From Heliocidaris erythrogramma (taxonomy: Eukaryota; Echinodermata; Echinoidea; Camarodonta; Echinometridae), in NCBI GenBank assembly GCA_025617745.1, contig CM046869.1:18430994-18494993 (forward strand): a DNA stretch of 64,000 nt, given 5' to 3'. The notes under the pieces are model-generated. The model had not been told where the DNA came from. It made no database searches and saw only the letters and a program-made list of their open reading frames with translations. A program made the position numbers and the translations under genes. Numbering within the stretch: position 1 is the first letter of the stretch; every line of letters starts with the position of its first letter. Shown piece by piece: positions 19,901 through 60,086 of this stretch.

Positions 19901-21980
19901 TGTAAGGCAAGCAGAGTAATGCCTTAGCTAAGAAACATAATAAAAAAACTCAGGGCAAATGGGAGAGGAGCTCGCTAGATACGTCACAGAGTTGCCAATT
20001 TGTGTTCGACTGGTTAAATCTTTAAAAATTAATAACTTTCTCATTTCTTATCAGATTTCATTGATCTCTTTGCTTATTTTTTCTTCTTCTTTTAAAATCA
20101 GCTTGATATCAGGATGGACTTTCCATTTATAGGCCATTGTTGCACATAGATGATGGGGTTTTTTTTATCACCCTCTCTTGCCATGCATTTACACCTAAAT
20201 TGATTGCATTTTGCCTTAGCATTTGGTTTTTAGGGCGGTTTAACACAGCATATGTGAACAAGGCATCATAGATACTATAGTTATCAACCCCATGTCCACC
20301 TTGCTATCATAAGGAAACGTGTCGTCTACGAAACAAATTACATTCAGTTCAAGAGATGCGCGTCATTGAGCGAGACCCCTGGTAAATCAATACGACGGAG
20401 ACGATAGAAAGGACTAAAATGGACGCAAGATGTGCCGCTGCATGTGATACAGTAAGAGAAGAGGAGAAGGGGGAGGTGCAGTGCAACTGTGTTTCAGTTC
20501 GTTTGCCCATTGAATTGATTTACAATACTCACTTAAGGCGTTTCCTACTCAAAAGTTCTTGTGCCTTGACACGTGCCTGCTGTGGATCATAGATCTGTCT
20601 GTTTGTTATCGGGGCTGGCAAAATATGTCGCCAGGAAAATGCTTGAGGGATAGAGTTATGTTCTGGACAGCTTCATCCATTATTGCGTGCAAACGGATGT
20701 TGCAAATTGGAGACAAAGTATAAATTTATAGTAGTGCATTAGATAAAGTCAGGGCAATAATTTTGATCATAAACCATATATCGCCCCCTCCATCCATGGT
20801 GTTTGAAATGCCATCATATCACACAATTAGCTCGGAAATTACAATTATTATGCAAGCCTCATAATCAAATACTGCATAAAAAGAGAAACTGATTTCTATT
20901 GTGGTCAGTGATATTGATTTTAGTAACTTAATAGAAACTGTAGCAAGAGGGACAGCCATTCTAAATTTAGGAATAAATTCACTTCTGCAACATCGATTCA
21001 ATTCAGTTCAATTCAATTTGTTGTTTATACACAAGAATACACATTTGGCATAAAAGGCATTGTCTGGCTGCTGTCAAATAATGATTATATATAATTCTAT
21101 ATAAAATCATCTAGAACGCCCCCCCTCCCAACCCAAACTTCTCTTGATGTGTTTGACCCTATACCCAGTTCTGTCTTGCCTATGTAGCTGTGCACCTAAT
21201 GCCACATTGCTCTGAAGCCCTGAGGGCAATTTCAGGGCAAATAATTGTGGTCACAGCGAAACCCGAAGAATATCGATCAACCCTGGTCGTGCATATTGCC
21301 GGTGGTGTGCTATTGCATGCCAGTGAATAAAGACAGTTCGTTATTTGATGCATGTAGCGTATATAGACAGGCCTGCGCAAGAGTATCGGGTGCTTTTAGT
21401 TTAATTTCCGAGAAAATGATAAGATTGTTTGCTGATTGTGTAATGTCAAGTGGAGATGGTGTAAGTGTGTCTATGTGCCAGAGGGCTAACAGGAATTCTG
21501 TTCCAAGGGTCATTGAATAGAGGCATCGCTTCATTTTCAGGATGGGGGCAGAGAAAGGACAACTGAAAATTCCATTCCAAACAGTGCATTTAGTAGGGCA
21601 TCAAGTCATTTTCAGGATGGGGCAGAGGGGGGAACTTTGAGATTTTTCAATCTTGAATGAAATAAAGGATGCAATACTTATAACTTATAACCAAATTCAC
21701 AAAATCACCCATCTGTAATTACAAGTGTAGGATATTATCATTTTTTGCTGAGGCAATCCTTTATTCTTCCAACTTTCTCTCTCTCCTCCATGCACAGGTT
21801 AATCTTGATTCCAGGACGCGGCTGGAAACGGTGGACAATCTGAGCGCGCCCGACGAGCACACGTTCGACCAAGCCCAAAAGAGGATAGAAGCATTAATGG
21901 AGAAGGACTCGTATCCGCGGTTTCTACGGTCCGAGATCTACCAGAAGCTGCTACGAGAAAGCAGTAAAAAGGGAAAGTGA
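16776..21980 (+). CDS. R4-type regulator of G-protein signalling, three coding exons (5' incomplete)
   Basis: Exons 16776-16936, 19591-19754 and 21798-21980 join in phase into about 168 codons and end at TGA. The product would accelerate GTP hydrolysis by Gi/Gq alpha subunits at the plasma membrane and so shut off GPCR signalling. Visible in order: a basic stretch ([11 protein letters not shown]) like the segment after the membrane-anchoring N terminus of RGS4/5/8/16; then an RGS domain with [32 protein letters not shown] and [13 protein letters not shown]. By family knowledge, Asn in DENIEFW, Asn in VNLDS and Asp/Arg in KDSYPRF are the G-alpha contact positions, and all are present. Only a dozen residues follow the domain, as in small R4 members. 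The intron positions look like those of vertebrate R4 genes (from memory). Missing: the short first exon with the start codon, which must end in two bases of a split codon. The exact vertebrate orthologue (RGS4, 5, 8 or 16) is not decidable here. Confidence 0.9.
19212..19292. repeat. Dispersed hairpin, family 2
   Basis: TTAACCCGTTGACTACTGAA TTTC, CCATAGGCTTAATACAGAGACC and TTCTCATAGGCAATTGGTTAA. The ends are inverted (TTAACC / GGTTAA), and CATAGGC occurs twice. Similar blocks lie at 61944 and 63578. Confidence 0.6.
19310..19384. repeat. Dispersed hairpin, family 1
   Basis: AGAGCCAGAAGGGTGTTAACTC pairs with GAGTTAATCCCCTTCCAGCTCT around a 30-nt AT-rich loop. It lies in the RGS intron. A single related arm, GAGAGCCATAACGGCGTTAG, lies at 19455. 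Confidence 0.65.
19591..19754 (+). CDS. RGS gene, middle exon encoding the RGS core helices
   Basis: 164 bp, preceded by TTCTCTTCTTAG. It completes an AAT (Asn) codon split with the previous exon, then encodes [37 protein letters not shown] and [16 protein letters not shown]. The last codon, GAG, is followed by GCAAGT, so the donor is GC rather than GT. This placement is supported because the next exon opens with VNLDS, the usual continuation after QAPRE in RGS proteins. Reading on without splicing gives a non-RGS tail and then a stop. Confidence 0.92.
19755..21797 (+). other. RGS intron with a GC donor
   Basis: A 2.04-kb intron with donor GCAAGT and acceptor TGCACAG. It contains a probable LINE 3' tail on the minus strand at about 20996-21050, marked by an ATTCAATTCAGTTCAATTC repeat. 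The rest is unique-looking AT-rich DNA without a recognisable gene. Confidence 0.7.
20996..21050 (-). mobile_element. Probable LINE 3' end fragment
   Basis: Short tandem units of ATTCAATTC or GTTCAATTC followed by TTTGTTGTTTATACACAAG. Read on the minus strand this gives a 3' tail of GAATTGAAT-type repeats, like the tail of the LINE fragment ending near 41812. Only the tail is recognisable, so this is a weak call. Confidence 0.35.
21798..21980 (+). CDS. RGS gene, last coding exon
   Basis: 183 bp, phase 0, preceded by a CT-rich tract ending CATGCACAG. It encodes [15 protein letters not shown], then [20 protein letters not shown] and [12 protein letters not shown], and a basic tail RESSKKGK before TGA at 21978-21980. 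This is the C-terminal third of the RGS domain, including the [21 protein letters not shown] signature. The GC content is visibly higher than in the surrounding introns. Confidence 0.93.
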
Positions 21981-39886: not shown

Positions 39887-39966
39887 CTAGGGGGCGTGGC
39901 TCTGCAAACCATCTTGACTACTGATGTCAGAGCATTCTTCCGGATCACCATGCTCATCTTCTGGTA
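39887..39966 (-). CDS. BCL10-like gene, terminal exon with stop
   Basis: 80 bp. The acceptor is CCTTATCGGATTGTGATTTCAG. The first two bases complete a TTA codon with the T left by the previous exon. It encodes PEDEHGDPEECSDISSQDGL QSHAP and then TAG. The acidic, Ser-containing end continues the character of the preceding exon. The intron before it is about 3 kb and contains a LINE fragment and MITEs. Confidence 0.72.
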
Positions 39967-42900
39967 CTGAAATCACAATCCGATAAGGAGAAAAATATTA
40001 GTATGCTAGATTCATTCAAAACAATATTCTTTTTAGTATTCATGTACATACACACTGACTATTGATACAGAGAGTTTGTCTTTGTTATCTATTTGGGAAT
40101 TTTCATAAGGAAACTACAGGTTACTTCTTTTCTTTTCTTTTTTTTTCTTTTGCATTGTATTACACTCGAAATACTGTTTGGATATCGTATTAGAACAAAA
40201 CAGACAACAACCAAATTTTTTGTGTGTGCCCGAGGAGGTAAAAAGTACCAACTTGTAGCAATTAATAACTGGTGTTGAACATCAAGAAAACACAGGAAAT
40301 GGTGATCGATTTCCGTAGGAGTTCCAGAACTGACAGTACTCATATACCCTTATGTATTAATGGGGAAGCTGTAACTCAAGTGTCTGAATACAAATACCTT
40401 GGTACAATCATTGATAACAGGCTTGATTGGGTCAAAAATACCACTAGAATCCAGTGTAAAGGAAATCAGCGCATGTTTCTCCTGAGAAAACTTAAGTCAT
40501 TTCATGTGAGGTGTCAAACTTTAAGCTTGTTTTACCAGAGCATCATTGAATCTGTCATTTCTTTTTGTTGCTTGGCATGGTTCCACAGCCTCACTGCTGT
40601 GAACAGGGGGAAACTGAATAGGATAGTTTAAAATGCAAGTAAGGTTGTGGGGGTCCCTGTTAAGCATCTTGAGGAGATTGCAGAAAGGGCTATTTTAGCC
40701 AAACTCGAAGTAATTATTAAAGACCCATCTCATCCTCTTCACACTGAAATCACGTTAAACAGGTCTGGAAGAATCAGATTGCCCCGTATGAGGACAAATA
40801 GATTCAGACAATCTTTCCTACCAAGTGCAATGATAGCATACAATAGGAAGTTCGTTAGGTAATCCAACATTCTTGCCTTTACATGTATGGCTACTATGTA
40901 CTTTGTTTTTATTCCTGCAATATAATATGCCTTGTATGTACACCGGTTGAATATTACAAATCCCACATTCTTGCCTTTACATGTATTGCTAAATGTACTT
41001 TGTTTATTCTATGTCTGCTTTAACACCGGCTGGATATCACAGTGTACAATGCTACTCTTTGTCTCAGGATAGGGAGATGCACTGTTCATGTACGTACCCT
41101 TCTTCTTCTTCTGCTTCATCCTCTTTCTTTCTTTCTCTTCTTTTTCTTCCTCTCCTTCTTCTTCTCTTCTCATTTTCCTCCATCCTAGGCTCTGCCTTTC
41201 TTCTTTTCTCTCTCCCTGCTCTCTTAGGTACATGTACATGTAATCTCGTTTTCTGCCTTTACAGGTAGCTATTAAACATACGATATTATGCAAGTTAATA
41301 TTTTACACATACTTTATTTTTGAATATTGGAGTATACATTGCCACACCTGTTTTAGAGTTAGGGGAAGTACTGGTTGTCTATTTTACATATGTATGTACC
41401 CTTTTTCGTTCTTCCTTTTTTCTTTTTCCTCCTTTTCTCTCTCTCTTTCTCTTTCCTTTCTTTTCCAGCTTTTCTCTGTTTTCCTGTATTTTCCTTTCTT
41501 TTGTTGTTTCTGCATGGTTCTCTGCAAGACGTGGACCTCTTGCTTGTACTCTATTTTCTTTTGTATACGGTTTATGTAGTTTTATCATGGAATAATGAGG
41601 TATTATATTGTCATGTATTTTTATTCTCAATATGTTAATATATTTTTGATACATGTGCATTAATATGTTTTTCTGTATTCATTCTTATCTATCACGTGCA
41701 ATTTTCTGATATGTATTTTTATGCTTGAAATTTGGAAATCGAACTGTAACCCAATTTTTATGCTTGTTGCATGACAATAAATGAATCATTGAATTGAATC
41801 ATTGAATTAAGGTGATCAACTTCGGTAAAAAGTATAATTGGTGCGCCGTCATTGATAGTAATATCACGAGGTATCAATATTGCTCATATAGGACATGCGT
41901 CAGTGACTGGAGCGGCACATGGGACTGCGTCAGCGGCTGACGACATGTGAGAGTGACATCGAACAAAAAGTTGATGCAAAATGAAGAGTTCAAATGTTGC
42001 GTTGAATTACGGGTGGGTTACTGACGCAAGCACTAACTGCCTTTAAAGGTTAGATTAGCGTTGGCAATCATGTAAATTAAAATGACATCTCTGTGCAACG
42101 GGCATAATAATATCGTACAAAATGTGAATGCAAAATGAAAAGTGTAAAGAATTCTTTTCATACCTGGAGTATGACAATTGCCTGTACAGGCTCGATTAGC
42201 GCAGGTACTGACGCAATCAAAATGGGGTAACCTCGCTAGTTAAAAAGAACCACTATTCATAAGGACAACTTATTCATAAGGACCGCTATCCATAACGCGT
42301 GACTAAATGAATAGTGGTTTTGTATGAATAGCGGTCCTTCTAAATAGTGAGCAAACCATAGACAAATTACCTCGCTATTCATAAGGACCTCCATTCATAA
42401 GGACCACTATTCATAACTATTCGTAAGCATTGGCGGATCCAGGGGGGGGGGGGCACTTCCGGCCCATGCCCCCCTTTTGAAAGAAAAGTATGTATTTTGA
42501 CCATAGAGGATCCGCCCTTTTGTCGATTGTGCCCCCCATTTTAGAATCAAGACCTTTTTTTTTTTTGCTTGTCAAAGAATTATGGAGGGAAACTGGACCC
42601 CCATAACCCCACCCTCCCACTGAGCGAATTTTTGAGGTCTGGCAAAAGAAAAAAAAAATTTTTGTCGCCCCCCCCCCCCCCCCCCCCACACTGAGCGACT
42701 TTTCGAGAAGCTGGAAAGACCAAAAAAATACGGGTCTACCTTTTCCAAAAGTTGACAAAGTTGCATTTGTGTGCCCCCCCCCTTATACTAAATCCTGGAT
42801 CCGCCCCTGTTCATAAGGACAGCTATTCATAACGCGTTTTAAATGAATAGCAGTTTTCTACGAATAGCGGTCCTTATGAATATCGAGCGGACCCCATCAA

Positions 42901-44693
42901 AATGATGCCTCATGTACAAATGGCATTACTCACAATGTAACCCTTCGGCCTCACGAAGTCGCCTGATATCAATCGGAGGGAATACGGCTTCGTTCCCGTT
43001 CATGACACTTGTATTGTCGCTGGAGGATAATGAGCTGAATCGATCGGACAACCGTCGTTCGTCGTTACACACTGCGTCGTCGTCGATATCAAAGTTGTCA
43101 CGATTGCTGACATGGTTGTGATCACCCAGTGGAGGAAGAAGATCTACGCATTGACATTTTAAAAGAGGTAGAATCTGGTTTCATATACCTACCAAACAAT
43201 TATGCAAAGATAAATCAATTAATTGAAAATGCCAAGAAAGTAATTGAAAATAAAAGTACAAATATGACAATAATTTTACTTAACCCGTTCCATGCCACCA
43301 GATTTTTGAGCAATTGTCAAAAATCAACTTTCAATGAGTTTTTTTCTTGAGCAATAGCCTTGTGAACCAACATCTGAAATGTGAGAACATTACAATGACC
43401 TGTAATCTGAAAATGGATTTCCTTCGGTAATAAAATAGGCTATTTAAATTCAGCTTGAGTTCATTCTACGAAAGCCTTTGTCATGCTTTAATCGAAAATG
43501 TTAATATAGTAACTGAAAAGAGAAATAATGGCGAACTATGGTTTCATTTAAACGTATCAGAGATACTTGGATATACAGAAATATATCCCTCCAAGCCTAT
43601 CCCACATCTGCTTGTTTCATGCAAAAATGATTTAAGAAGGTATTTTTTAGTTATTTCATTAACAATTAGATTCAAAACAAAACAATGCTACAATGTTTTA
43701 CTCTGCCTCTGGACTTTTGTCCAGAGGCAGAGTAAAACAGTAAACTGAAGATTTGGGATTTTTTTGCCCGTATTTTTCCCCCGTCTGACAATCCAATCAA
43801 CTTGCACTGACAGGGTCAGTTCATCATGGTATAAAGTGGGCTGTTGTAACTGACAAGTATCGTCCAGGCAGACATAAACCGCAGGGCGGACCTGATCTGC
43901 TGTCACACGGGTTGCTGCAGCATCAAAATTCTCGGACTGAATTTTAGTCCCAAATCTCCCCGGGTGTGTTCAGATAATTTTTGAAAATGTCGATAGTGAA
44001 AGCACCTACCTTCAATTCTAAATGACTGTAATGCGTCGGCAAGTGTACTGAAGACAAATTGCTCTACTCTATTTTTTTCCAGGGATTCTATAAAAGCAGA
44101 TACTGGGTCTGGACCTCCCTCAAGTAGCACGTCGACAAAACTGTGAGAAAAAAAGTAATTCAGAAAGGGGTTATCTGATACCGGTATGTGAAAAGGCACT
44201 TCTGGCAACATCACATTTAATCTTCATGGTCTTATTTATGCCCTTTCTACCCTTACATTATTCCTTTACAGTTATCCTTGTACACAGAAAGCACATCCAG
44301 GATCCTGAAAGGGGCAGGGGGTGGTGGAAATTTGTTTGCTGACAGTAATTTCCCAGCAACGTGATTTCGGGAATCGGCCTCCAAAGGTCTCCAAAGGTCC
44401 CGAAAGGGAAGTTGCACAGTGTTGTTTCTCCTATCTTCTCCTGTCTTTTCTGTCTTTCATGTCTTTTTTTTCTCAAGGGGGTGGGCCGCTTTTCCCCCCT
44501 TCCTAATATTGACCTATGCTTGTATGTATTGTTTCTTCATATATACTCACCAACTTACTTTCGCCGCTGTGGTCACTTTATTCTCAATGAGTTCCACTGT
44601 GGTTTTGTCAAACCAACCCTTACTTCTAAGGTACGCATAGTGCCGGCTAGGATCGAGATGCTTGCACAGGAACAGGCGATTCGATTCAAGAAC
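39887..44693 (-). CDS. BCL10-like CARD adaptor, four coding exons (first exon missing)
   Basis: Minus-strand exons 44551-44693, 44010-44140, 42934-43143 and 39887-39966 join in phase (2+1, 1+2, 1+2) into 187 codons plus a TAG stop. The first two encode a complete caspase-recruitment domain: NRLFLCKHLDPSRHYAYLRS, WFDKTTVELIENKVTTAAK, VDVLLEGGPDPVSAFIESLE, RVEQFVFSTLADALQSFR. The best family match from memory is BCL10 (LRVYLCEKI, RHFDHLRAKK, TEEI, KLLDYL, FLIQKITDEVLKLR), including the LR pair equivalent to human L41/R42, important for CARD filaments. After the CARD comes a Ser/Asp/Asn-rich low-complexity tail (RLSDRFSSLSSSDNTS), like the Ser/Thr-rich BCL10 C terminus. BCL10 polymerises on CARD-coiled-coil proteins and recruits the paracaspase MALT1 to activate NF-kB. 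Human BCL10 is 233 residues; this product would be about 200-215 with a short first exon. It could instead be another small CARD protein. Confidence 0.8.
40255..41812 (+). mobile_element. 5'-truncated non-LTR retrotransposon (3' part)
   Basis: The 40272-40631 and 40647-40862 frames encode the end of a LINE ORF2: LNIKKTQEMVIDFRRS, YKYLGTIIDNRLDW, SLFYQSIIESVISF, then KDPSHPLH and FRQSFLPSAM. This is the C-terminal thumb/tail pattern of L2/CR1/Rex1-like elements. A stop at about 40629-40631 and probable 5' frame loss make it a pseudogene. The 3' UTR (about 40863-41790) is T/CT-rich and includes a roughly 100-bp direct duplication (ATTCTTGCCTTTACATGTAT at 40870 and 40970). It ends in a tandem TGAATCATTGAAT tail. 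It lies antisense inside the last intron of the BCL10-like gene. Confidence 0.75.
40272..40862 (+). pseudogene. LINE ORF2 C-terminal fragment
   Basis: Two frame-compatible blocks separated by an in-frame TAA-type stop encode the region after the polymerase core of a non-LTR reverse transcriptase. The catalytic FADD box and everything upstream are absent. The motif DPSHPLH near the C terminus is typical of fish and invertebrate L2/Rex-like elements. Non-functional. Confidence 0.75.
42228..42351. mobile_element. Palindromic MITE built of TATTCATAAGGACC units
   Basis: ACCTCGCTAGTTAAAAAG at the left and CTAAATAGTGAGCAAACC at the right frame ACTATTCATAAGGAC and GAATAGCGGTCCTTC units, with ATAACGCGTGACTAAATGAA at the centre. 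It can fold on itself. Confidence 0.65.
42367..42896. mobile_element. Second TATTCATAAGGACC MITE, split by the hAT-like insertion
   Basis: The left half starts CCTCGCTATTCATAAGGACC; the right half ends GGTCCTTATGAATATCGAGC. Without 42428-42809 the two halves make a palindromic element like that at 42228, including the centre ATAACGCGTTTTAAATGAAT. Confidence 0.65.
42428..42809. mobile_element. hAT-like MITE with 8-bp target duplication
   Basis: Ends CATTGGCGGATCCAGGGGGG and AAATCCTGGATCCGCCCCTG. Flanks TTCGTAAG (42420-42427) and TTCATAAG (42810-42817) are an 8-bp duplication with one change, as expected for hAT. Internal text GCTTGTCAAAGAATTATGGA is shared with 35850-35870. Confidence 0.8.
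42934..43143 (-). CDS. BCL10-like gene, exon encoding the Ser/Asp-rich tail
   Basis: 210 bp. The acceptor is CTACCTCTTTT...TGCGTAG; the donor is a consensus GTGAGT (minus strand of 42928-42933). It completes a GAT codon, then encodes LLPPLGDHNHVSNRDNFDID, DDAVCNDERRLSDRFSSLSS, SDNTSVMNGNEAVFPPIDIR and RLREAEGLH. The region is polar and probably disordered, with Ser clusters that could be phosphorylated. CpG-rich codon use sets it apart from the AT-rich introns. The alternative upstream acceptor (CCAG) gives a stop and is rejected. Confidence 0.75.
43144..44009 (-). other. Intron of the BCL10-like gene
   Basis: An 866-bp intron from donor GTAGGT to acceptor TGCGTAG. Plus-strand open frames at 43129-43350 and 43455-43748 have no recognisable similarity and are probably chance. 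It carries a perfect 46-nt hairpin at 43694-43739. Confidence 0.65.
43694..43739. repeat. Perfect short hairpin
   Basis: TGTTTTACTCTGCCTCTGGAC and its exact reverse complement flank a TTTT loop: a 21-bp stem without mismatch inside a BCL10-like intron. The loop is too short for a typical animal pre-miRNA. A snap-back duplication or tiny MITE is more likely. Confidence 0.85.
44010..44140 (-). CDS. BCL10-like gene, exon encoding CARD helices 4-6
   Basis: 131 bp. The acceptor is TACTTTTTTTCTCACAG and the donor is GTAGGT. It encodes FVDVLLEGGPDPVSAFIESL, EKNRVEQFVFSTLADALQSF and RIE, ending with one base of a split codon. It aligns with human BCL10 from GKLLDYL to KITDEVLKLR. The phases fit both neighbouring exons. 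Confidence 0.82.
44551..44693 (-). CDS. BCL10-like gene, exon encoding CARD helices 1-4
   Basis: 143 bp. The acceptor on the minus strand is TTTCTCCATCCCTGCAG, followed by GTT in phase 0; the donor is GTGAGT (minus strand of 44545-44550). It encodes VLESNRLFLCKHLDPSRHYA, YLRSKGWFDKTTVELIENK and VTTAAKVSC (last codon split). A GTAAGT 11 bases earlier is a competing donor, but it gives phase 0 and puts a stop in the next exon, so the later GTGAGT is chosen. As I recall, human BCL10 exon 1 ends just before ALENLRVYLC, the equivalent position and phase. Confidence 0.82.
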
Positions 44694-45161
44694 CTGCAGG
44701 GATGGAGAAATTCAAATTTGTTTAAACAATCTCTGGAAGCATTGACCTTCTATTTCTTCTCCTGAAGGTAAGCTACAATAGATTCAGTATGTTGGTAAAT
44801 ATTATCTAGTATATTCAATTATTGAGTATATACAATTGGTAATGATACTGTGACACATGTATGCATGCACTGGCGACAATTGCATTGCGGTCAACACACT
44901 AACCGCATTCCTTATTTCGACCAATGAGTTATCACAGAAGTTGCTTCAATCCTGGACCAAGCTTTATATCTATCCCAACCCAAACGCTAAACCTAACCTA
45001 CATGTAAAACCCAGTCGTAACCTTCACTTACCCTGTGTCTTTGACAATACAATGCTCAGAGCAACTGTTGCAGGAGCATGTACTGTGAATGTCAGGTCTC
45101 TTTAGTAATAAATCGTTTTGTAAAGAATATGCACACAACAGGGAGGTGGAAGAGCTCCCTG
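44694..45161. other. Upstream intron or flank of the BCL10-like gene
   Basis: On the minus strand this precedes the CARD exon, so it should be intron. A GTAAGT donor at about 45023-45028 (minus) lacks an open, phase-0 coding exon in front of it, so no first exon is called. Confidence 0.4.
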
Positions 45162-45170
45162 CAGACAACA

Positions 45171-46485
45171 GGCTTGTCTCGAATGGGTGGGTTGCGGGAG
45201 CGGGATGGGAGCGGGAACGGGAACACCCGGTTATCTCGAATGGACGCGTTCCCAGCGAGAAGTTCAATGAACGCGCCACTTCGAGACAACCAGGGGGGGG
45301 GGGGGGGGGCTATCCTCGAATGGGCGTGTTGAGTAGACTTTTGTAACAGACGTTTTAGACATTTTTGAAAAATGTACTCTTGCTAGTTTTTTCGTTTTTC
45401 TTTTGTCTAAGATGTAGAAAATATAAAAACAACTAGTATCTAAAAAAAGCTTTTGACAAGGAAATTATTATTTGTGCAAAATAAATAGGAGAATTGAATA
45501 ATTATGCATTAAAACACACGGGGACGAAAGGGCAAGTGGCGTAGCTAGGATTTTTTATTTATTTATTTTTATTTTTTTGGCATGACCTGTTAAATATTGT
45601 GAAATTGTGTTACAGACATGTGCTGACATAAGCCAAGGTGTGTTTATCATCTTTCCAAAGTTAGAAACACCTTTTAATGCCACTATCATTCTATCAATAC
45701 CCACTATCAAAAGTCAAAATGCATATTTTCCTAAATTAATTTCCTAAATTGCCTGGATAGGGGGTCCAATATCTCAGAAAATTCCTCGGGATAGGGGGGT
45801 AAATTCCAACTTCTCCGGGATAGGGGGTCACTTTTGAAAAGGAGGTACGAGCATAGGCTCTTGTATGGGGAGTTGGGGGGCCGGGTACAAACGACCTTTT
45901 GATATGCGTTTTGACTTTTGATAGTGGGTATTGATAGAATGATAGTGGCATTAAAAGGTGTTTCTAACTTTGGAAAGATGATAAACACACCTTGGCTTAT
46001 GTCAGCACATGTCTGTAACACAATTTCACAATATTTAACAGGTCACGCCAAAAAAAAAATAAAAAAAAAATAAAAAATCCTAGCTACGCCACTTGCCCTT
46101 TCGTCCCCGTGTGTTTTAATGCATAATTATTCAATTCTCCTATTTATTTTGCACAAATAATGATTTCCTTGTCAAAAGCTTTTTTAGATACTGTTTTATT
46201 ATATTTTCTACATCTTAGACAAAAGAAAAATGAAAAACAAAACAGCAAGAGTACATTTTTCAAAAATTTCTAAAACGTCTGTTACAAAAGTCTACTCAAC
46301 ACACCCATTCGAGGAAAGCCCCCCCGGTTGTCTCGAAGTGGCGCGTTCATTGAACTTCTCGCTGGGAACGCGTCCATTCGAGATAACCGGGGGCTTGTCT
46401 CGAAAGGGTGTGCCCGTTCCCGCTCCCATCCCGCTCCCATCCTGCTCCCATCCCGCTCCCGCAACCCACCCATTCGAGACAAGCC
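45171..46485. mobile_element. Foldback DNA transposon with long terminal inverted repeats (Mutator-like?)
   Basis: 1315 bp. Left arm 45171-45725 and right arm 45902-46485 are reverse complements over about 555-585 bp, with a 176-bp centre. The termini are GGCTTGTCTCGAATGGGTGG and its complement. Perfect 9-bp direct repeats CAGACAACA flank it (45162-45170 and 46486-46494). Arms contain sub-repeats (GAGCGGGATGG, TCGAGACAA) and the block GGCGTAGCTAGGATTTTTT near the A/T-rich inner part. Long TIRs plus a 9-bp duplication are the pattern of non-autonomous Mutator-like elements. No transposase is encoded. Confidence 0.85.
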
Positions 46486-46977
46486 CAGACAACATGCTTT
46501 TAAAGATAAAGTTGAGTTCTTGTCATGCAATTACACGGTGAAAGAAACTGTCTCAGAGCAATTAAGAAAGGTTGATCATGTCTACATAAGAATTGGTCTA
46601 TATTGTGAGGTTTTGGAATCATCAAAATGATAAAAAATTGACCCAATCTCGCTAAAAGGCACATATACTTCACACATATAAATGGATATATGGGACTGCA
46701 CACATATGTGGCATAAAAACTTCAGCTATTTCTTGTCATATTTTGAGTATGAGGGCATTAGAAGAGTGATCCCTTTTTCAGGTGACATTTCTATTAGATG
46801 TTCTTCCCAACTGACATTTATAAAAGATTGAGAAAGCTTACATGTACAAATTATTTTCACCTTTCCCAGAACTCAACCTTATCTTAAAATCAAATAATGC
46901 TGTATATAAGGTCGGCAAGCAGTAAACAAACTGTTATTCCAAAGCGGAACTAGATATATCCATTACAGCGCAATGCG

Positions 46978-47373
46978 ATTGTATCCCCCAGCACTGGCAG
47001 CGATTCGAAGGAGGGACAAAGAACCTTCCCCTCCCCTCCCTCAAACAAAAGGATGGCATCACCAAAATCTATAGGTATCTAGATTATACCAAGAGACACC
47101 TTCATGCAAAATTTGAACAAAATGTGACCGCTAGAGCACACACAAACTATCCCCCAAAATATGGCCTTTTACCCTATAAAAGACGGAATGCTGGGGGCAG
47201 CATCACCAGATATTATAGGTGTCTAGATTTTACCAAGATACACCTCCATACAAAGTTTGAAAGAAATATGTTGAGAAATGTGACCGCTAGAGCACACACA
47301 AGAATGTGACGCGGCGGCGGCGGAACACTGCTGAATCCAAAGTATCCTCCAGCATTTTGCCGGGGGATACAAT
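46978..47373. mobile_element. MITE with ATTGTATCCCCC ends and internal duplication
   Basis: The terminal inverted repeats are ATTGTATCCCCCAGCA at the left and TGCCGGGGGATACAAT at the right. Inside, a unit of about 140 bp is directly repeated: GCATCACCA.A.T.TATAGGT ... AATGTGACCGCTAGAGCACA at 47058 and 47200. Confidence 0.7.
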
Positions 47374-47968
47374 AATATGAAATGTCATCACTACTATAAT
47401 GTAATTTATTTTAAAAAGCGGGAATTTACACCAAATCATTTCAACTTATCAGTATCTAAATAGTTGCTGATTTAAGACAACGATGGAATTAGGTAACAAT
47501 CAAATACCCCTATGACTTTTCAGTCCTACATTCACCATCTATGTTTAATGAACATGTTTACAAAATGGTTTACTGAAGAACATGATGAGCTGATGGAAAT
47601 TGGGTGACAGGTGCCATTGTCTGCAAACTCAGACAACACATAAGAACCGGATTAATGCATTCTAAATGACCCTTCACCTAAATGGTACATCGGTATAGAT
47701 ATAGTATACAAAATAATTCAGATTACCAAAATTACATGTATTAGGAAGGCATAGTTTTTTCATTATTTTTTCTTCTTCCCCTTCAGATCAAAATATTCAA
47801 CTTAACATCTAATATTCTAGAAAATTTGTTCTGAATGCCATGAAAATTATTAAACATTACACATCACTAGATCTCTAAAAATATTTGTCTTTCATTTGAA
47901 TAATTTGAATAACAGAGAAACCAAAACAAACTTGTGTAATCGCAGTTAAAAATAAGGACCACAATGTA

Positions 47969-48289
47969 ATAAGCCAGTTCGGGGTTAGCGCATGGTACAA
48001 ATGACCCCAAATATCCACAGATATTTTAGACATGGAGGGTCCCTTTATGTGCACTTCAGAAAAATAACTCTGGGAGTGATAGAGGTGCCTCATGAATAGC
48101 TTTTGTTCCCCCCTTTAAAAAGAATACTTCCACCTGGATATCATGGAATGCACCATTAGTGCATAATTGAATAATGATTACATGACATTCATGAGCACAT
48201 ATCGAATATTAGTGTCAGTGGGTTTTAGAATTTGGTACAGATGACCTTTATCTGCTCATGCTCAGATTGCATCCCCGAAGTGGCTTATT
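47969..48289. mobile_element. MITE with AATAAGCCA(G/C)TTCGGGG ends, copy 1
   Basis: About 320 bp. The ends AATAAGCCAGTTCGGGG and the complement of AATAAGCCACTTCGGGG are imperfect inverted repeats. It is a near-identical reverse complement of 50847-51168. Non-coding. Confidence 0.8.
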
Positions 48290-48714
48290 TGGGTGTACAT
48301 TAAATTATAAATCAACTTTCAAAAATAGAATTGCTTGACATTTCCTCAAGGGAAGTGAATAGTTCAGGCAGTGGCGTATCCATCACTATCTGTGCGGGGT
48401 GGGAGGGGGTACACACCCCAACAAAAATTAATTAATAAATCCGGCATATCCTAAGTACACATCAATAATAACAAGAAAATGTGCCCCCCCCCCCATTTGT
48501 GCCTCTGGATAGAAATTTGTAAATTTGTAAATTTCTATTTTTCGTTGACAAATTTGACGTTAAATCAATAAATGGTATAGAATTAAATCGTTGGGTAACA
48601 TGAAATAATGAAGTTAATTATTCAATTGTCTCCAACGGTCACCAGAAGGTGGTAACACACGCAACTGCTGTGTGATAGGTTGCTCGACTGCTGTGAAAAA
48701 AAAAATCACAGGCA

Positions 48715-48788
48715 GACCGAGCGGGATTCGAATCCGCGACCTCTGGGTAACTAGACCAATGTCATAACCACTAGACCACAGGAGTGCC
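48715..48788 (-). other. tRNA-like SINE head, inverted copy
   Basis: Reverse complement of the core at 48918-48989 with a few differences (GGATTCGAATCC instead of GGGTTCGAATCC). The acceptor arm again does not pair. It forms one arm of the inverted SINE pair. Confidence 0.7.
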
Positions 48789-48917
48789 CTTAGTGGTATA
48801 GGTTCGAACTATCCCATTCATATGATGTCAAATCAATGGATTACCCAACGGATTAATTCTATACCATTGATTTGACATCATATGAATGGGATAGTTCGAA
48901 CCTATACCACTAAGGGC

Positions 48918-48989
48918 ACTCCTGTGGCCTAGTGGTTATGACACTGGTCTAGTAACCCAGAGGTCGCGGGTTCGAATCCCGCTCGGTCT
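48918..48989 (+). other. tRNA-like SINE head (Thr AGT-like), not a functional tRNA
   Basis: The A box TGGCCTAGTGG, anticodon arm CTGGTCTAGTAACCCAG (loop CTAGTAA, anticodon AGT) and T arm GCGGGTTCGAATCCCGC are clear. The 5' and 3' acceptor segments (ACTCCTG and TCGGTCT) do not pair, so it should not fold into a mature tRNA. It serves as the pol III promoter of the SINE unit. Confidence 0.7.
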
Positions 48990-49194
48990 GCCTGTGATTT
49001 TTTTCACAGCAGTCGAGCAACCTATCACACAGCAGTTGCGTGTGTTACCACCTTCTGGTGGCCGTTGGAGACAATTGAATAATTAACTTCATTAAATTTG
49101 ACGTTATATGGCAGGGAAGTTTTCAGACAGACCTGTGCCTCTCCCCCACCCTGCCCAAGAATCCTGGATCTGCCACTGACGACAGAAACATATA

Positions 49195-49558
49195 CAAGTA
49201 TCAACAAGGATCAGTGGATAAGTCCCCGGACTGTGAACCACGAGGTCCGGGGTTCGAATCCCACCGCAGCACTAGCGTCCTTTGGCAAGACGTTAATCTA
49301 CATTTGCCACTCTCCACCCAGGTGTTAAATGGGTACCCGGTAGGATGGCGAAAGGTAATGTCCTTTGCTCAGCATGTGTGCGCTTTACAGACGCCTGGCT
49401 GGAATGCTCCCCAGGGAGTGGAGAATGTGCATACACTGTGTGCGGGCGTGCCAGAATCCAATGACCAGGGGTAATAATATATACCTATCTATACAGCGCC
49501 ATGAGCGTCGAAAGGCGGACCTGCGCGCTATACAAGTAGCCACTATTATTATTATTAA
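49195..49558 (+). mobile_element. tRNA-derived SINE, longer variant
   Basis: The head reads CAGTGGATAAG...GGTTCGAATCC, followed by the same conserved body (CATTTGCCACTCTCCACCCA, AAATGGGTACCCGGTAGGAT), a variant middle, then GCGCTATACAAGTAGCCACT and (ATT)n. It belongs to the same family as the SINE at 58792. RNA polymerase III promoter boxes are present, but activity is unknown. Confidence 0.85.
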
Positions 49559-50846
49559 CATTATACCGTCTTTACATCGTATATCATACGATGGTACTAT
49601 CAGGGAGACGAATTACGAATTAGTTTCTGTATCTTTATTGTTTGAAACATTCACTATAAAATGTGTATTATACATGTAGGCATTATGCCTTTGTATGTTG
49701 TCGCTCGTGAGAGACGAGTGAAAAAAGTGACATTTGATCAACTCTATACATTTGTGAGAAAGAGCTGATTTGCGGGAGGTCTATTTAGATAAGTGGCATC
49801 ATATATATGATACTTTAATTTAAAAAATATGTACCTACGATACAACTATAATAGAAGCCTATATATTGCAGTGCACATATGACTTTAGTGTTACGTAAAC
49901 GCTAAAGTCTGTATAGATCTTTAGATAGCTTAGATAACTAAGTGGTACAGATCTAGACAGAACTAGATGAATCTCCGACCACGCGCGGTCAGAATTTATG
50001 CCTCCGCCATCATCAGATTGGCAATGTATGGCATACATGTACACTTTAAAAAGGATTGGTCCATCAAAATTACAAATCTTTTCACTTCAAAAGCACAGGA
50101 GACAGAAAATTTATTTCATTTTATTTTCAAATAAAAAACTTAATTACCATTGATGACTTACAATCATCAAATACACCATGGAAATACATATTTTATAGCA
50201 AATAGACCACTGTCCCCTTGAAATTTCTAAAATAGGTATGCCTAGACTCTAGCGTTGCGAACCGCGACTACAAAAGTGCGACTACATGCTTTTCGCTGAA
50301 ATTACATATATTTTTCATCTAAAAATTAAACTAAATAAAACTTCAACTATTGATTGATTGCATTCATAATTTAGTCAACCAACTTATAGCTTACCAAAAA
50401 CGATGATTTATTGCGTCATCTGCCCACAGCCCGTAATGGAATGTAATCGCGCTGCACTTTTTGAAAGGTCTCCCCCCATGCGTAACTATACACAGCACTG
50501 TCGCGAAGCGATATGCGATGGACAGGTTTTGGCAGTCAAAAGTTGAAATTTATAGTATACCCTGTGGACATTGCCTGTTGCTGGGGATTGCACTTCAATC
50601 CAAGCAATCGATTTCATGTGAGTATAACGTAAAATTGGAAGTTTAACATACACTTTAAATTAATTTTGTACATTGTTTTTAGTGACATTGAGGGGTGTCG
50701 CAATGAAACAAACTTGTCAGACTTTGCACGGCGTCTGGTAGGGCTAGTACTACTATGATGCCTTTACCTAATACCGACCTCTTAACGATGTTTCCAACGA
50801 CTGCGGCAAAGATTCTTCATGAAACGTAATGAAAATTCATCAGGCT
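49559..50846. other. Non-coding stretch
   Basis: No gene or named repeat recognised between the SINE and the MITE copy. Confidence 0.45.
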
Positions 50847-51168
50847 ATAAGCCACTTCGGAGATGCAATCTGAGCATGAGCAGATAAAGGTCATCTGTAC
50901 CAAATTCTAAAACCCACTGACACTAATATTCGATATGTGCTCATGAATGTCATGTAATCATTATTCAATTATGCACTAATGGTGCATTCCATGATATCCA
51001 GGTGGAAGTATTCTTTTTAAAGGGGGAAACAAAAGCTATTCATGAGGCACCTCTATCACTCCCAGAGTTATTTTTCTGAAGTGCACATAAAGGGACCCTC
51101 CATGTCTAAAATATCTGTGGATATCTGGGGTCATTTGTACCATGCGCTAACCCCGAACTGGCTTATTA
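50847..51168. mobile_element. MITE with AATAAGCCA(G/C)TTCGGGG ends, copy 2 (inverted)
   Basis: The same element as 47969-48289 in opposite orientation, with few differences (for example GATATCTGGGGTC versus GATATTTGGGGTC on one strand). The 2.56 kb between the copies includes the SINEs. Confidence 0.8.
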
Positions 51169-51556
51169 CCCAAATACTGGGGAACAAGATCCAGGTACTA
51201 ACGAGCGATAATACTTGCGCGTTCTTGTACTGTTGTAGAAATGACGTTGCAATAGAGTCATCTCATTTTACGCATAGAGGGAGAAGTGCGTTTTAATTAC
51301 CGACCCCTGCACATAGTCAATGGCAATTTATGAAAAGAGATTATTTTAATGAAAATATGAAAAATTAACAAAAAATTGATAATAATTATGTTTTTATTCC
51401 TCATCTTGCTCTATTTTGGCTGTTCTCAACGTTGCTAGGCATTCTACGCGTAGTCCCATGGGTTGATTTGCAAGACGCGCGCTAGATGCCATGATACGCT
51501 TAATGGTCGGTATTATGACTGGCCGGTATTGGGTGAAGTGATCATGCTAGTAAATA

Positions 51557-51606
51557 CTACTACTACTAGTAGTAGTAGTACTAGTAGTAGTAGTACTAGT
51601 AGTAGA
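51557..51606. repeat. ACT/AGT trinucleotide palindrome
   Basis: ACTACTACTACTAGTAGTAG is followed by further AGTACTAGTAGTAG units. It is self-complementary and could form hairpins or a cruciform. Confidence 0.9.
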
Positions 51607-51614
51607 ACCATGTA

Positions 51615-52278
51615 TGGTGGTGTGACCATATTTCGCGCATGACCTAAGTTCGCGCACAGGGCAATATCTAAAAAACTACAAAAGATTTCGAAAATTTGAT
51701 AGCGCTATGAGATAGAGGAAGCTAAAATTACATATGGACTATATTTTCTTTTAAGTTGGGTGAGAGATTATGAAGATATTGACAAAATATCGGCAATTTT
51801 GCTACTTTTTGCGTCAGTTTCCGAAAAATATGAAGTTACCGACAACGGTCCAAAAATCCTCATTTTGATAGAAGATGTCATCAAAGTTGTAGGTAAAACG
51901 TGATACCAAATGATTGTTGATATTTTGTCTTACAAATGATGCAACTATCTTCCCTTTGCTGGACCGCTACGTTGGATAACTTAGATGTTAATTTACGTGC
52001 GCGAACTTAGGTCTCGTGGTTTTTATGCCCTTTTTTTTTTCTTCAGTGTTTTGCGATCCGACACTGGGTTTTGAGATTGCGGTATTTCCGAAATTCTTCG
52101 TCGATTAATGTTCTTGTTGAATCAAGTTTTAGTCCAGAATTTTGCTTTCCGTTTAGTTTGGTTTGGTATAAAACTTTATAAATAAATTATTGTAGAATAT
52201 GAGAAATCAAGTATCGAAATTCGAATATCACATTTCTAATAAAAATTTGAATGTGCGCGAAATATGGTCACCCCATCA
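51615..52278. mobile_element. TA-flanked MITE with GTGACCATATTTCGCGCA ends
   Basis: Left TGGTGGTGTGACCATATTTC and right complement TGATGGGGTGACCATATTTC, both continuing GCGCA. TA lies on both sides (51613-51614, 52279-52280). A second internal inverted pair, GACCTAAGTTCGCGCAC, occurs at 51640 and about 51990. 664 bp, no reading frame. Confidence 0.75.
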
Positions 52279-52324
52279 TATAACTTTTTAAGTGATGATA
52301 ACCATACCTCTGTATACACCTTCA

Positions 52325-52480
52325 ATCTCTGTAATGGCGTAAGTTGGCGCAGATTTCTCGGCATTCTTCCTGTGTTTTCTGCTCTACTTAGATTGTCAGG
52401 GCCGCGGTTCGAGTCCCGGCTGTGGCTTCTCACAGGGGGGTACTGGCACTGCGACGACAGGGTACTCATTAGCGCGTGTT
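52325..52480 (+). mobile_element. Possible SINE remnant
   Basis: TGGCGTAAGTTGGCGCAG resembles an A box and GGTTCGAGTCCCGG a B box, about 65 bp apart. The spacing is larger than in a tRNA. No (ATT)n tail is seen. Weak call. Confidence 0.3.
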
Positions 52481-54422: not shown

Positions 54423-54826
54423 TCAAATGCTATACTCTGATAGTAAAATTTTCTTTACTTCTGTTTTAAAAGAATTAAGAGTTCTACAAGATCTGATATT
54501 ATCAGGGAGTGTATTCCATAAGTCAGGACCATGATGCCTTATGGATTTATGTGCAATCAGTGACTTAGGATTGACTAAATGAAAATTTAATGAATTCCGA
54601 GTAGGATACGAATGAATAGTATTATTTAGTATAAAAAAATGTTGAAACGATTGAGGCAATAAATTATTAGAATATTTAAACATAAATATCAGATTTTGCA
54701 TCGTATTTACATCAAAAACTTTAAGTGTTTTTAATTCATAAAACAATGGATTTGTATGAGCTAAATACTGCGAGCCAGTACAAATGCGTAGAGCTTTCTT
54801 TTGTAATAAAAATACAGGGTTAATTT
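54423..54826 (-). pseudogene. LINE ORF2 C terminus
   Basis: In the frame after the A-run shift: NPVFLLQKKALRICTG, HSYPTRNSLNFHL, GPDLWNTLPDNIRS, SFKTEVKKILL and a stop. This QKKALRI ... Y.TR ... WN.LP ... FK pattern is the usual tail of Jockey-superfamily ORF2. No zinc knuckle is seen. Confidence 0.8.
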
Positions 54827-55645
54827 TTGGTCTTTCCGCAAGTGGCCCATACCAAAGTACAATAAGTAATATATGGTAGTATTAAAGAATTGTAAAGCAT
54901 GAAAAGAGTATTTTTAGGAATATAATATTGTATCTTATAAAGTATACCAATGTTCCTAGAAATACAAGTAGTTATATGCCGTACATGTTCACTCCAATTT
55001 AAATTTTCATCGATGAAAACACCTAAAAATTTTGTATATTTTTTACGTTCGAGAGAAATATTATCAACTTTTATATTATAGGGAAATTCATCTATCTGAT
55101 TACTAAGTTTGAAATGTATAAAATTTGTTTTATTTATGTTAAGGGACAATTTATTACATTTAAACCAGGCAGATATTTTCAGTAATTCTGAATTAAGTAT
55201 TCGAACTAATGTGTCTAAGTTTTCATGAGAGTGAAAAATATTAGTATCATCGGCAAAAAGGATAAATGATAAAAGGGATGTAGAGTTGGTTATATCATTA
55301 ATGTATAAAATAAATAGAAGCGGACCTAATATCGACCCTTGAGGGACACCACATGTAATTGCAAGAGAGTCAGATTGAATTCCATTATATACTACATATT
55401 GTTCTCTACTAGATAAATAATCTTTTAACCATGAAAGTGCAATACCTCTAATCCCATAGTTTTGGAGCTTTTTAAACAGAATATCATGATTTAGAGTATC
55501 AAACGCTTTAGATAGATCCATAAAAACCCCTACTACATGTTTTTTGTTGGCCATTGAATTTGTTATTTTATCATATATTTGAACTAATGCTAAATCAGTT
55601 GAATAATTTTTCCGAAAGCCATATTTAGTATTCAAAAAATTAAAA
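54827..55645 (-). pseudogene. LINE reverse transcriptase catalytic core
   Basis: Contains YGFRKNYSTDLAL, VFMDLSKAFDTLNHDIL (first catalytic Asp), GVPQGSILGPLLFILYINDI and FILFADDTNIF (catalytic FADD at about 55247-55258), then SLNINKTNFIHF and YTKFLGVFIDENLNWSEHV. All polymerase motifs are intact, but the element as a whole is broken. The frame ends at a stop after one extra A in an A run near 54826. Confidence 0.88.
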
Positions 55646-56560
55646 AGCCTATAGTATAAATTAATTTTTCAAGTATTTTTGATATGCTAGGAAGAATTGA
55701 AATGGGTCGATAGTTGCTAATTTCATGAGGATCGTCTTTTTTAAAAAATGGATTACCTTTAGCAGTCTTTAAAGAGTTTGGACATTCGCCCACAGATATT
55801 GATAAATTAAATATAAAAGTTAATGGGGATGCAATAACGTGTATAATTTGTTTCAGAAGTGATGTACTTATTCCATCATGGCCACAAGCTTTACTAGAAT
55901 TAAGACCAGTCGTTAAAGTTATTATTTCATTTTGATTTGTTGGATTAAAGAACAAAGATGAAGATGTAGGTTTAGGAAGAAAATTAAGGAAACTTTCGTT
56001 TTGCGCATTGATTCTATTTGCTAAATTAGGACCTAGATTAACAAAATACGAATTAAATGCATTTGGTATCTCATTGTTATTAAAATTATTACCATCCAAT
56101 GTAAAATTTTCCTTCGGTAAATATTGTTTTTTCTTTCCCATCAAATCATTTAAAATGTTCCAGGTTAATTTCATATTTGATTTTACTTTGTTTAATTTTT
56201 CTGCATAATGAAGTTTACGAGACATGCGAATAGTGGTTGTTAATTTGTTTCGGTATTTTTTATATTTATTTAAATTGTCATCTGTTCGATTATGTAAATA
56301 AATCTTGTACAATCTATTCCTTTCATGTATAGATCGTAAAATTGCTTTAGATATCCATGGCATTTTACCATGTTTATTATTTTTAGTTTTAACAAAAGGA
56401 AAGTTTTTATTATAATAAAATTGCATTTTTTATTAAAATTATCATATGCAACATTTACATTTGTTTGAGTATATACATCATACCATTGTTCATGGGCTAA
56501 GTCGATCTTGAATGATTCAATATTTTGAGTTGTTTCTTTTCTATACATTTTAGATTTAAA
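55640..56560 (-). pseudogene. LINE ORF2 linker and reverse transcriptase N-terminal part
   Basis: Reads in two frames: 56430-56560 (YRKETTQNIESFKIDL, EQWYDVYTQTN) and 55650-56426 (MPWISKAILRSIHERNRLYK, KLTWNILNDLMG, KACGHDGISTSLLK, ISNYRPISILPSISKILEKL). These are the usual blocks between endonuclease and polymerase and the first RT motifs (NYRPISILP). Frameshifts lie near 56425-56435 and 55655-55665. Confidence 0.82.
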
Positions 56561-56935
56561 CAAATGTCCAGCATTTGTGTTATCGTCACTAATAACAAAA
56601 ATTTGAAGATGATCTGATATAATTTATCTGAGTATAATAAACCACTGGTAATATTTTTATCATAAATATTAGAAAATATATTATCAATCAAGGTTGCTGA
56701 ATTATGACATATTCTTGTGGGTTTGTTTATATGAGGGTAACATGCATGAGAGTATATCAGTTGAGAAAAATTTTCACAGTTATTACTGTCATCTAATAAA
56801 TTAATATTAAAATCTCCCATTAAATATAATTGCTTATTTTCGCGTGAGAATGTTCGAAAGCAATTTTCCAAATCTTCATAAAATGAATCGATATTACTAT
56901 TAGGGGGTCTATAAATTGTTTCCAAAAATGAAAGG
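56497..56935 (-). pseudogene. LINE endonuclease domain, C-terminal part
   Basis: Contains TIYRPPNSNIDSFYEDLE, LYLMGDFNINLL and TLIDNIFSN, as in apurinic-like endonucleases of non-LTR elements. The N-terminal half, with the first catalytic residues, is missing. The final SDH motif is present but in another frame than MGDFNINL, so a frameshift lies near 56610-56625. Inactive. Confidence 0.8.
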
Positions 56936-57465
56936 GACTCTAACCATTGATCTCTACATATTTTTTTTTTACGTTGAGCCAAGTGACTCGATCTAAAAGC
57001 CATTGGCTAATAGCGTACTCTATCGAATGGGGCGAAGAAAGAAAGAGAAGGGGAAGGAGGAGGAGGAGGAGGAGGAGGAGGAGGAGGAGGAGGAGGAGGA
57101 GGAGGAGGAGGACCTGACGTGACGTCATAACAAAGTTTTGTGTCATTGTGGTAACCCGCTAAACGCTGTGCAATGTAGTCTTTATTGCAGCACATCTTGT
57201 TGTTAACGCTGCACAACATAATCAGAAACTTAAACACATAATCATGTGAACTATTGATTGTAATCCCTGTAATCACGTCACCCGTTACACGCTTACATTT
57301 CTCCTGTAATTTTCTTCTTATTTCTATCATTACACGTTGAGAACGTAAGAATCAATACACTCTGGATATACGAGACTGTGAAATGCATCGGCTACGAGGC
57401 GAGCACAAAGGGTGTTTTCGCCGATAATAAGGGGACTTCCCCTGGTCTATATAACTAATCTGGGG

Positions 57466-59087: not shown

Positions 59088-59375
59088 TATCAGATTTCAT
59101 AACTGTTACGATATGACAATGACGGCTCAGATTTGACAACCATTAGTCCTTTTACAGCAGAATTATGAGAACTCATAGTTGCACGTCATTTTGTTATAAA
59201 AAAAAATAAATAAATAAAAAAATAGGACGTCCATTTCGTAACTCTGTCTATGAACGGACTCTAACCATTGATCTCTACATATTTTTTTTTACGTTGAGCC
59301 AAGTGACTCGATCTAAAAGCCATTGGCTAATAGCGTACTCTATCGAATGGGGCGAAGAAAGAAAGAGAAGGGGAA

Positions 59376-59655
59376 GGGGAAGGAGGAGGAGGAGGAGGAG
59401 GGGGAGGAGGAGGAGGAGGAGGAGGAGAAGAAGGAGGAGGAGGAGAAGGAGGAGAAGGAGGAGAAGGAGGAGAAGAAGAAGGAGGAGGAGGAGGAGGAGG
59501 AGGAGGAGGAGGAGGAGGAGGAGGAGGAGGAGGAGAAGGAGAAGGAGAAGGAGAAGGAGAAGGAGAAGGAGAAGGAGAAGGAGAAGGAGAAGGAGAAGGA
59601 GAAGGAGAAGGAGAAGGAGAAGGAGAAGGAGAAGGAGGAGAAGGAGAAGGAGTAG
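59376..59655 (+). repeat. GGA/GAAGGA purine array, 280 bp
   Basis: (GGA)n and (GAAGGA)n on the plus strand. The frames over it (poly-Arg, poly-Glu/Lys, poly-Pro/Ser) are artefacts. The shorter counterpart at 57056-57110 ends duplication copy A. Confidence 0.95.
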
Positions 59656-59689
59656 TAATATAGATGAAAGTGATATATAATTTGTAGTA

Positions 59690-60086
59690 GGTGGGGGGGG
59701 GGGTGAGAAAGTGATTAGGCCTATAGTTCACCAATAGTTCACTGATTTAGAATGTAAATTCTATTGATCTTTATTTTCTTTATTTGGTTTTATTGGATGA
59801 TTCATTGATTTTGGTGGAAGCCAAAACATATTACCTTCAGAAGTTCTATACTAAAACAAAATGGGTAAATTGTGCAATATTGTCATTCTTTTCAATATAA
59901 ATTCAAATTTATTGGACCACACAGTACATCTGCGCCTTCTGCGGTAATCCTCATAGGCCCATGAGTACTGGAGCATTGGTATCGGGTGGTTCCATTAAAA
60001 ATCCTTGGCTATCACATACCACATGTACTTATTATACCCCGTTTACAAATCGCAAAAAAAAGCTTTCATGATGACATAATTGAAAA
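59690..60086. other. Non-coding stretch
   Basis: A G10 run at 59693, then AT-rich DNA. Nothing recognised. Confidence 0.45.

Follow-up and report, generated by a model that had tools for sequence, protein, structure and literature searches.

A stretch of 64,000 nucleotides of the sea urchin Heliocidaris erythrogramma (GCA_025617745.1, contig CM046869.1, positions 18,430,994 to 18,494,993; the whole stretch is here called the window) was found to carry on its minus strand a complete five-exon gene that is very probably the sea-urchin orthologue of BCL10. In vertebrates, BCL10 is a small adaptor that helps to switch on immune signalling. The gene runs from 52469 to 39887 and its 726 nt, including the stop, encode a complete product of 241 amino acids (aa), in which the CARD is preceded by an N-terminal extension and followed by a disordered acidic, Ser-rich tail.

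A preliminary description of this DNA, made from the letters alone, had placed four minus-strand exons here (44693-44551, 44140-44010, 43143-42934 and 39966-39887) with phases fitting at every junction and one open product with a stop. These exons were recovered with GT-AG borders as one 187-codon open frame ending in TAG. As a model of the whole gene they fell short: they contain no ATG, and as the first of them opens with a splice acceptor and its reading frame runs out before any ATG is reached, a further exon upstream is required. The missed first exon, at 52469-52308 and 7.6 kb upstream, was picked among phase-0 ATG-to-donor segments upstream on the minus strand and brings the gene to five exons. 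It is an open ATG-to-donor segment whose translation (MSTLSSQCQYPPVRS...VYTE) is closely similar to the N-terminus of a Lytechinus variegatus protein (P0002, LOC121428686, 240 aa), and it is the best of the matches of P0002 to the genome. The parts of the gene, all on the minus strand, are as follows.

52308..52469, minus strand: exon 1, with the start codon and residues 1-54, ending inside the first CARD helix at the donor GAG/GTATGG (phase 0).
44694..52307, minus strand: intron 1, 7614 bp, phase 0, with two tRNA-like Rfam matches inside.
44551..44693, minus strand: exon 2 (first exon of the preliminary description), encoding the CARD's first half (residues 55-101 plus two bases of codon 102).
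44010..44140, minus strand: exon 3 (second exon of the preliminary description), encoding the CARD's second half, from the final base of codon 102 through the first of codon 146.
42934..43143, minus strand: exon 4 (third exon of the preliminary description), acidic Ser-rich linker with a conserved PP(I/V)D..L segment and a short predicted helix.
39887..39966, minus strand: exon 5 (fourth exon of the preliminary description), conserved acidic tail with an SD(I/V)SS segment and the TAG stop.

The exons measure 162, 143, 131, 210 and 80 nt and the introns 7614, 410, 866 and 2967 bp. All four introns are GT-AG, their phases from the true start are 0, 2, 1 and 1, and neither a stop nor a frameshift occurs across the 726 nt. 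In a simple base-frequency score of the splice sites, the 43143 acceptor proved poor in pyrimidines, and of the four donors the one at 42934 came lowest, though it still belongs to the best-scoring 2.3% of the gene's GTs; the proteins of the relatives align across both of these weaker junctions.

Of 249 candidates in a homologue search with the 187-aa product, four matched at E <= 1: P0002 (71% identical across all 187 aa, E 1.1e-75), P0003 (65% identical), P0004 from Diadema antillarum (50% identical) and a fragment, P0005; P0006 (53% identity to the window protein) was added by profile search. Chance is excluded for the 187-aa product because P0002 aligns over its whole length, and the full-length protein is conserved end to end with three aligned relatives at 75, 70 and 48% identity, the first of these being P0002. 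Both named urchin orthologues (L. variegatus and D. antillarum) carry the label 'uncharacterized'. P0003 and P0006 are probably transcripts, because the longest contigs behind them (1493 and 1195 bp) are too short for a 12.6-kb gene. P0005, judged from its translation, seems to start in an intron, cross the second CARD exon and continue into the intron that follows, with the same borders as in the window gene.

P0002 was searched against the whole genome (1,064,227,859 bases in 26 contigs, given C labels; the window is C17:18430994-18494993) and produced eight matches at E <= 1. Five of them (E <= 3.6e-5) are the five exons, in order, and the remaining three have E of 0.14-0.82. The exon-1 match runs beyond the exon end through two stops, as is expected of an intron-blind search. 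The gene is apparently single-copy in this genome. A decayed copy (pseudogene) lying in transposon-rich DNA would fit the large, repeat-bearing introns and the one pyrimidine-poor acceptor, but is highly improbable in view of the undamaged frame, the four GT-AG introns in register, the lack of any other good match in the genome and the 75% identity, from end to end, to a relative that is itself intact.

The product was assigned to the CARD family by Pfam (PF00619), at 26.6 bits for the four-exon product and 27.1 bits for the full-length protein against a cut-off of 23.9. CARD was the only Pfam family matched by the window protein at E <= 10, with no catalytic or other domain among the matches, and NCBIfam gave no match for the four of four members searched. 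The claim that the first two exons of the four-exon model encode the CARD thus stood as to the domain, whereas the start of the CARD sits in the missed exon 1. The preliminary description had expected CARD from profile searches, with BCL10 first, and this was borne out. In a PDB search by sequence, the four-exon product matched BCL10 at 1.2e-5 (28.7 bits) versus CARD9 at 0.05, the CARD-CC (CARD-coiled-coil) type reaching 16.7 bits. With the urchin profile, the values were 7.9e-9 for BCL10, 4e-4 for CARD9, 0.08 for CARD11 and 0.18 for RAIDD, a gap of ~15 bits favouring BCL10 over the CARD9/11 type; the Diadema protein alone gave BCL10 at 1.1e-5 and CARD11 next at 0.29.

In the homologue search, the echinoid profile alone retrieved no BCL10 (its 4 matches at E <= 10, out of 5339 candidates, are all urchin-type), for which the word filter of the search is a likely cause. 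When a human CARD fragment was added to the query, vertebrate BCL10s appeared (149 proteins, of which the best 120 were listed); this list is not independent evidence of homology because the human fragment was in the query, and no row named as an invertebrate outside the urchins was present among the best 120 of the 149. A reciprocal profile was made from 15 BCL10s (13 of them named vertebrate) out of 116 newly listed proteins. It scored the urchin-type proteins (five of five) at 53.4, 52.5, 46.5, 45.7 and 38.6 bits, versus 28.1 bits for RAIDD and 23.0 bits for CARD9 as PDB outgroups. Profile-profile comparison of urchin and BCL10 gave a probability of 98.5% (E 1.5e-15), over the CARD only. 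The BCL10-type identity proposed in the preliminary description was in this way supported by both the PDB sequence searches, in which BCL10 was the best family, and the reciprocal profile; the trees described below agree without being decisive.

Intron 1 of human BCL10 lies after c.57 (variant c.57+1G>A), i.e. after codon 19 (PMC7506548), and the human isoform P0041 shares sequence with P0012 from A20 onward only, in accord with this position. Urchin intron 1 falls between E54 and V55, which align to human D19/A20, and the phase is 0 in both. Isoform P0012 is without 11 residues after K115 that are present in other BCL10s such as P0022. On the assumption of an alternative acceptor in P0012, the second human intron is deduced to be in phase 1, since phase 0 would not allow an acceptor that immediately precedes a GAT/GAC codon following proline. 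The urchin gene, too, has a phase-1 intron where the CARD ends, but 3-6 residues from the human one, depending on the alignment. Human BCL10 has, we assume, three coding exons.

D80, E84, Q92, L95, I96 and I99 of human BCL10 are reported to be critical to its binding of MALT1 (PMC5978004). Position E84 is acidic and L95, I96 and I99 are hydrophobic in all five urchin-type proteins, so that 4/6 of these residues are kept in kind. E53, a polymer-interface residue of BCL10 (PMC9342958), is kept in four of the five, and R36, H37 and R42 in all.

A maximum-likelihood tree of 26 CARDs joined the five urchin-type and nine BCL10 rows at 95/90, apart from CARD9/11, RAIDD, NOD1, APAF1, CASP9 and six other CARDs of this genome. 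In a second such tree of 22 rows, with APAF1, CASP9, NOD1 and the own-genome CARDs L005, L006 and L008 dropped and two CARDs from contig C5 added, urchin and vertebrate BCL10 were joined at 89/87. Outgroup CARDs were partly entered by hand, and vertebrates were the sole non-urchin source of BCL10 rows. With the vertebrate BCL10s removed, the best tree placed the urchin rows on the CARD-CC side at 87/88. The trees favour BCL10 without proving it; the profile scores and the intron weigh more.

The AlphaFold model of P0002 contains a CARD-like helical bundle, with blocks of predicted local distance difference test score (pLDDT) 72-94 over residues 41-150; 106 of the 240 residues fall below pLDDT 50, and the tail lies mostly under 50. 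Nearly all structural matches listed (the best 50 of 97 Foldseek matches at E <= 10, and 50 VIA rows) are named CARDs or designs. The modelled fold indicates a CARD without pointing to BCL10.

The preliminary description had also held that a CARD-CC/BCL10/MALT1 module probably exists in this animal. Searches of the genome for the partners found one MALT1-type paracaspase and two CARD-CC-type genes, and at the level of sequence this interpretation is well supported, the predicted parts of the module lying in the same genome. For the paracaspase, a PF18703 Ig exon match (19.3 bits, below the cut-off of 26.4) pointed to 50 kb of contig C8. Exons in this region are 49-53% identical to human MALT1 and include GHG and DICRK segments, which we take to be the catalytic segments of the caspase-like domain; on their own letters they match MALT1 in PDB at 6.6e-18 and 1.5e-11, and an Ig-like exon lies upstream of them (E 2.4e-4 within the 50 kb). 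By these features, the C8 locus is a predicted MALT1-type (type 1) paracaspase.

For the CARD-CC genes, a genome search with CARD11 returned just two weak matches at E <= 1 (0.06 and 0.74), and both lie on C5. The first CARD half of both C5 genes was found in the flank, with the donor at the same place in each. The joined CARDs matched CARD11 in PDB at 1.2e-12 and 5.4e-9 and grouped with CARD9/11 at 88/88 in the 22-row tree, and coiled-coil-like exons downstream were recognised by eye and by weak tblastn matches (E 0.009-0.4 and worse). The two loci are CARD-CC candidates of the CARD9/11 type. CARD matches on C3 and C1 were rejected as CARD-CC genes, being single open frames in which no coiled coil was seen and which fall outside the CARD9/11 + BCL10 group (96/92), though one of them is still 44% identical to a CARD9 fragment (E 1.3e-4); a further match, L027, was judged by eye to be a chance one in helicase-like sequence. 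Related single-frame CARD proteins were observed at C3:202533, C3:18800398, C3:18818827, C1:73076502 and C18:27919651; the trees place them apart from BCL10 and from the CARD-CC group, and this small family is perhaps an echinoid CARD expansion. A protein with two tandem CARDs in one 208-aa frame was also observed at C2:13683859-13684389.

Several results weigh against the assignment to BCL10. CARD identity to human BCL10 amounts to just 22/93 aligned residues. In the 22-row analysis, the tree program flags the urchin-BCL10 join itself as one between two long branches, and approximately unbiased (AU) tests reject none of the alternatives (urchin + CARD-CC, p 0.31; vertebrate BCL10 + CARD-CC, p 0.119; urchin + RAIDD and the own single-exon CARDs, p 0.114). 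No Foldseek match was obtained at E <= 0.001 (best 0.088), BCL10 (6bze) was at rank 26, and 6bze was not among the 50 VIA rows listed; the fold search did not single out BCL10 and was set aside as family evidence, the fold being evidence of a CARD only. D80 is replaced by S or A and Q92 by E in all five urchin-type proteins. Comparison of the urchin and vertebrate tails by hhalign scored 13.82 (E 0.11, 17 columns), and 4 of 100 column shuffles scored as high. The MALT1 death domain was not found within the 50 kb of C8 searched.

Because the AU tests reject no alternative, confidence in BCL10 was lowered slightly and that in another CARD family raised. Under the latter, a CARD protein of some other family (CARD-CC, RAIDD-like, NOD1-like or an echinoid-specific expansion) would resemble BCL10 by chance, as might happen with CARDs, which are short and divergent, and as the placements left by the AU tests, the other CARDs that outrank BCL10 by fold and the second place of CARD9 in the sequence searches would allow. 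We regard this as very unlikely, given the consistent rank and bit-score gaps favouring BCL10, the shared intron 1, best trees that exclude CARD9/11, RAIDD, NOD1, APAF1, CASP9 and the six own-genome CARDs, and the position of the CARD-CC candidates elsewhere in the genome. Membership of the CARD-CC family proper (CARD9/10/11/14) is disfavoured by the ~15-bit gap, the 28.7 versus 16.7 bits and its separate place in the best tree, though the AU test does not reject urchin + CARD-CC.

A different alternative accepts a true BCL10 orthologue but one uncoupled from MALT1 in echinoids, in which the CARD polymerises while a changed interface and a new tail serve other effectors. The changes at D80 and Q92 would fit this, as would a tail that is conserved among the urchin-type proteins and weakly if at all related to vertebrate tails. 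Oyster Bcl10 is likewise without an acidic residue at D80, and human MALT1 is not activated by it (PMC5978004). Against such uncoupling, which we consider unlikely, stand the four contact residues kept in kind, the MALT1-type caspase-like domain (GHG, DICRK) and CARD-CC genes that the genome retains, and the published statement that the region outside the CARD which MALT1 activation requires is not tied to any single conserved peptide (PMC5978004). As to the tail itself, a conserved (L/F)PP(I/V)D segment is present in the urchin-type proteins, and MAFFT pairs PP(I/V)D...LPE with the vertebrate proline motif; the C-termini are nevertheless not taken to be homologous, the hhalign score being no better than that of 4/100 shuffles and the weak match falling elsewhere in the tail. 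It is conceivable, though doubtful, that echinoid BCL10 has been rewired, with a conserved polymerising CARD, an altered MALT1 contact (D80, Q92), and echinoid-specific novelties at both ends, namely the N-terminal extension and the acidic SDISS tail. If so, the recruitment of the paracaspase would have taken its own evolutionary course in sea urchins, or another output would in part have taken its place.

As a BCL10 orthologue, the window protein would most likely act as a nucleated polymerising adaptor between a sensor-side CARD-CC protein and a paracaspase, by analogy with vertebrate and Nematostella BCL10 (PMC5978004, PMC9342958). A receptor-activated CARD-CC protein (the C5 candidates) would nucleate polymerisation of the BCL10 CARD, as in vertebrates and cnidarians, and the resulting filament would bind the N-terminal part of the C8 paracaspase, clustering and activating it as a scaffold and/or protease. 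The tail, which would be lineage-specific, probably modulates how the protein turns over or binds its partners.

Other features of the window were recorded. One feature lies within the gene, in intron 4:

40269..40862, plus strand: probable retrotransposon relic (open reading frame fragments), of which 40269-40628 matches Pfam ALKBH8_N at 24.7 bits (cut-off 21).

ALKBH8_N is presumably a segment common in the open reading frames of long interspersed nuclear elements (LINEs). A LINE-type element lies upstream of exon 1 (54823-57006, minus strand; reverse transcriptase PF00078, 1.4e-28; endonuclease-like open reading frame below the cut-off). The two tRNA-like Rfam matches in intron 1 are inverted (48713-48785, minus strand, and 48918-48990, plus strand; 30.8 and 36.9 bits); ARAGORN found no tRNA despite them, and the pair is perhaps a tRNA-derived short interspersed nuclear element. 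Two plus-strand exons (19572-19916 and 21684-21977; Pfam RGS 4.9e-17 and 5e-14) belong to a neighbouring gene with an RGS domain, and the first of them has RGS2 as its best PDB match (1.5e-20); we take this gene to be R4-like. A long low-complexity tract at 59278-59727 produces spurious overlapping open reading frames on both strands.

Bcl10 is stated for cnidarians, molluscs, annelids and hemichordates in PMC5978004, and a "BCL10" is given among lipopolysaccharide-responsive genes of a sea cucumber transcriptome in PMC7161275, where the identity is by name. No paper on sea-urchin BCL10 was recognised in a literature search limited to open-licence papers. Invertebrate Bcl10 is thus already published; what is added here is an unannotated urchin member, with its gene model put right and candidates for every partner, which extends a known family in a useful though not revolutionary way. 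For a protein with counterparts called 'uncharacterized' in two named sea urchins, there is now a complete and correctly bounded gene model. The sea-urchin genome appears to hold all three parts of the module (CARD-CC, BCL10 and MALT1), and its ancestral role becomes testable in an accessible embryo and coelomocyte system.

The published invertebrate Bcl10s (Nematostella, Crassostrea; PMC5978004, PMC9342958) resemble the present case as Bcl10s outside vertebrates that occur alongside CARD-CC and type 1 paracaspase; they are likened by description, not by sequence, and 'urchin' is absent from both main texts, while the sole 'echinoderm' mention in PMC5978004 is in its reference list and the main text of PMC9342958 has none. 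The L. variegatus protein P0002 is the orthologue over the full length, with a length within one residue and 73-75% identity; it differs in coming from another urchin and in a record named only 'uncharacterized protein'. Compared with human BCL10, whose structure is here partly assumed, the urchin gene has two additional introns, one within the CARD (phase 2) and another in the tail, and the urchin protein has about 35-40 extra N-terminal residues relative to vertebrate BCL10. With vertebrate BCL10 (human; PDB 6bze, 2mb9) it shares an N-terminal CARD followed by a low-complexity tail, a similar size (241 versus about 233 aa), the same aligned position and phase of intron 1, and MALT1 and CARD-CC partners in the genome.

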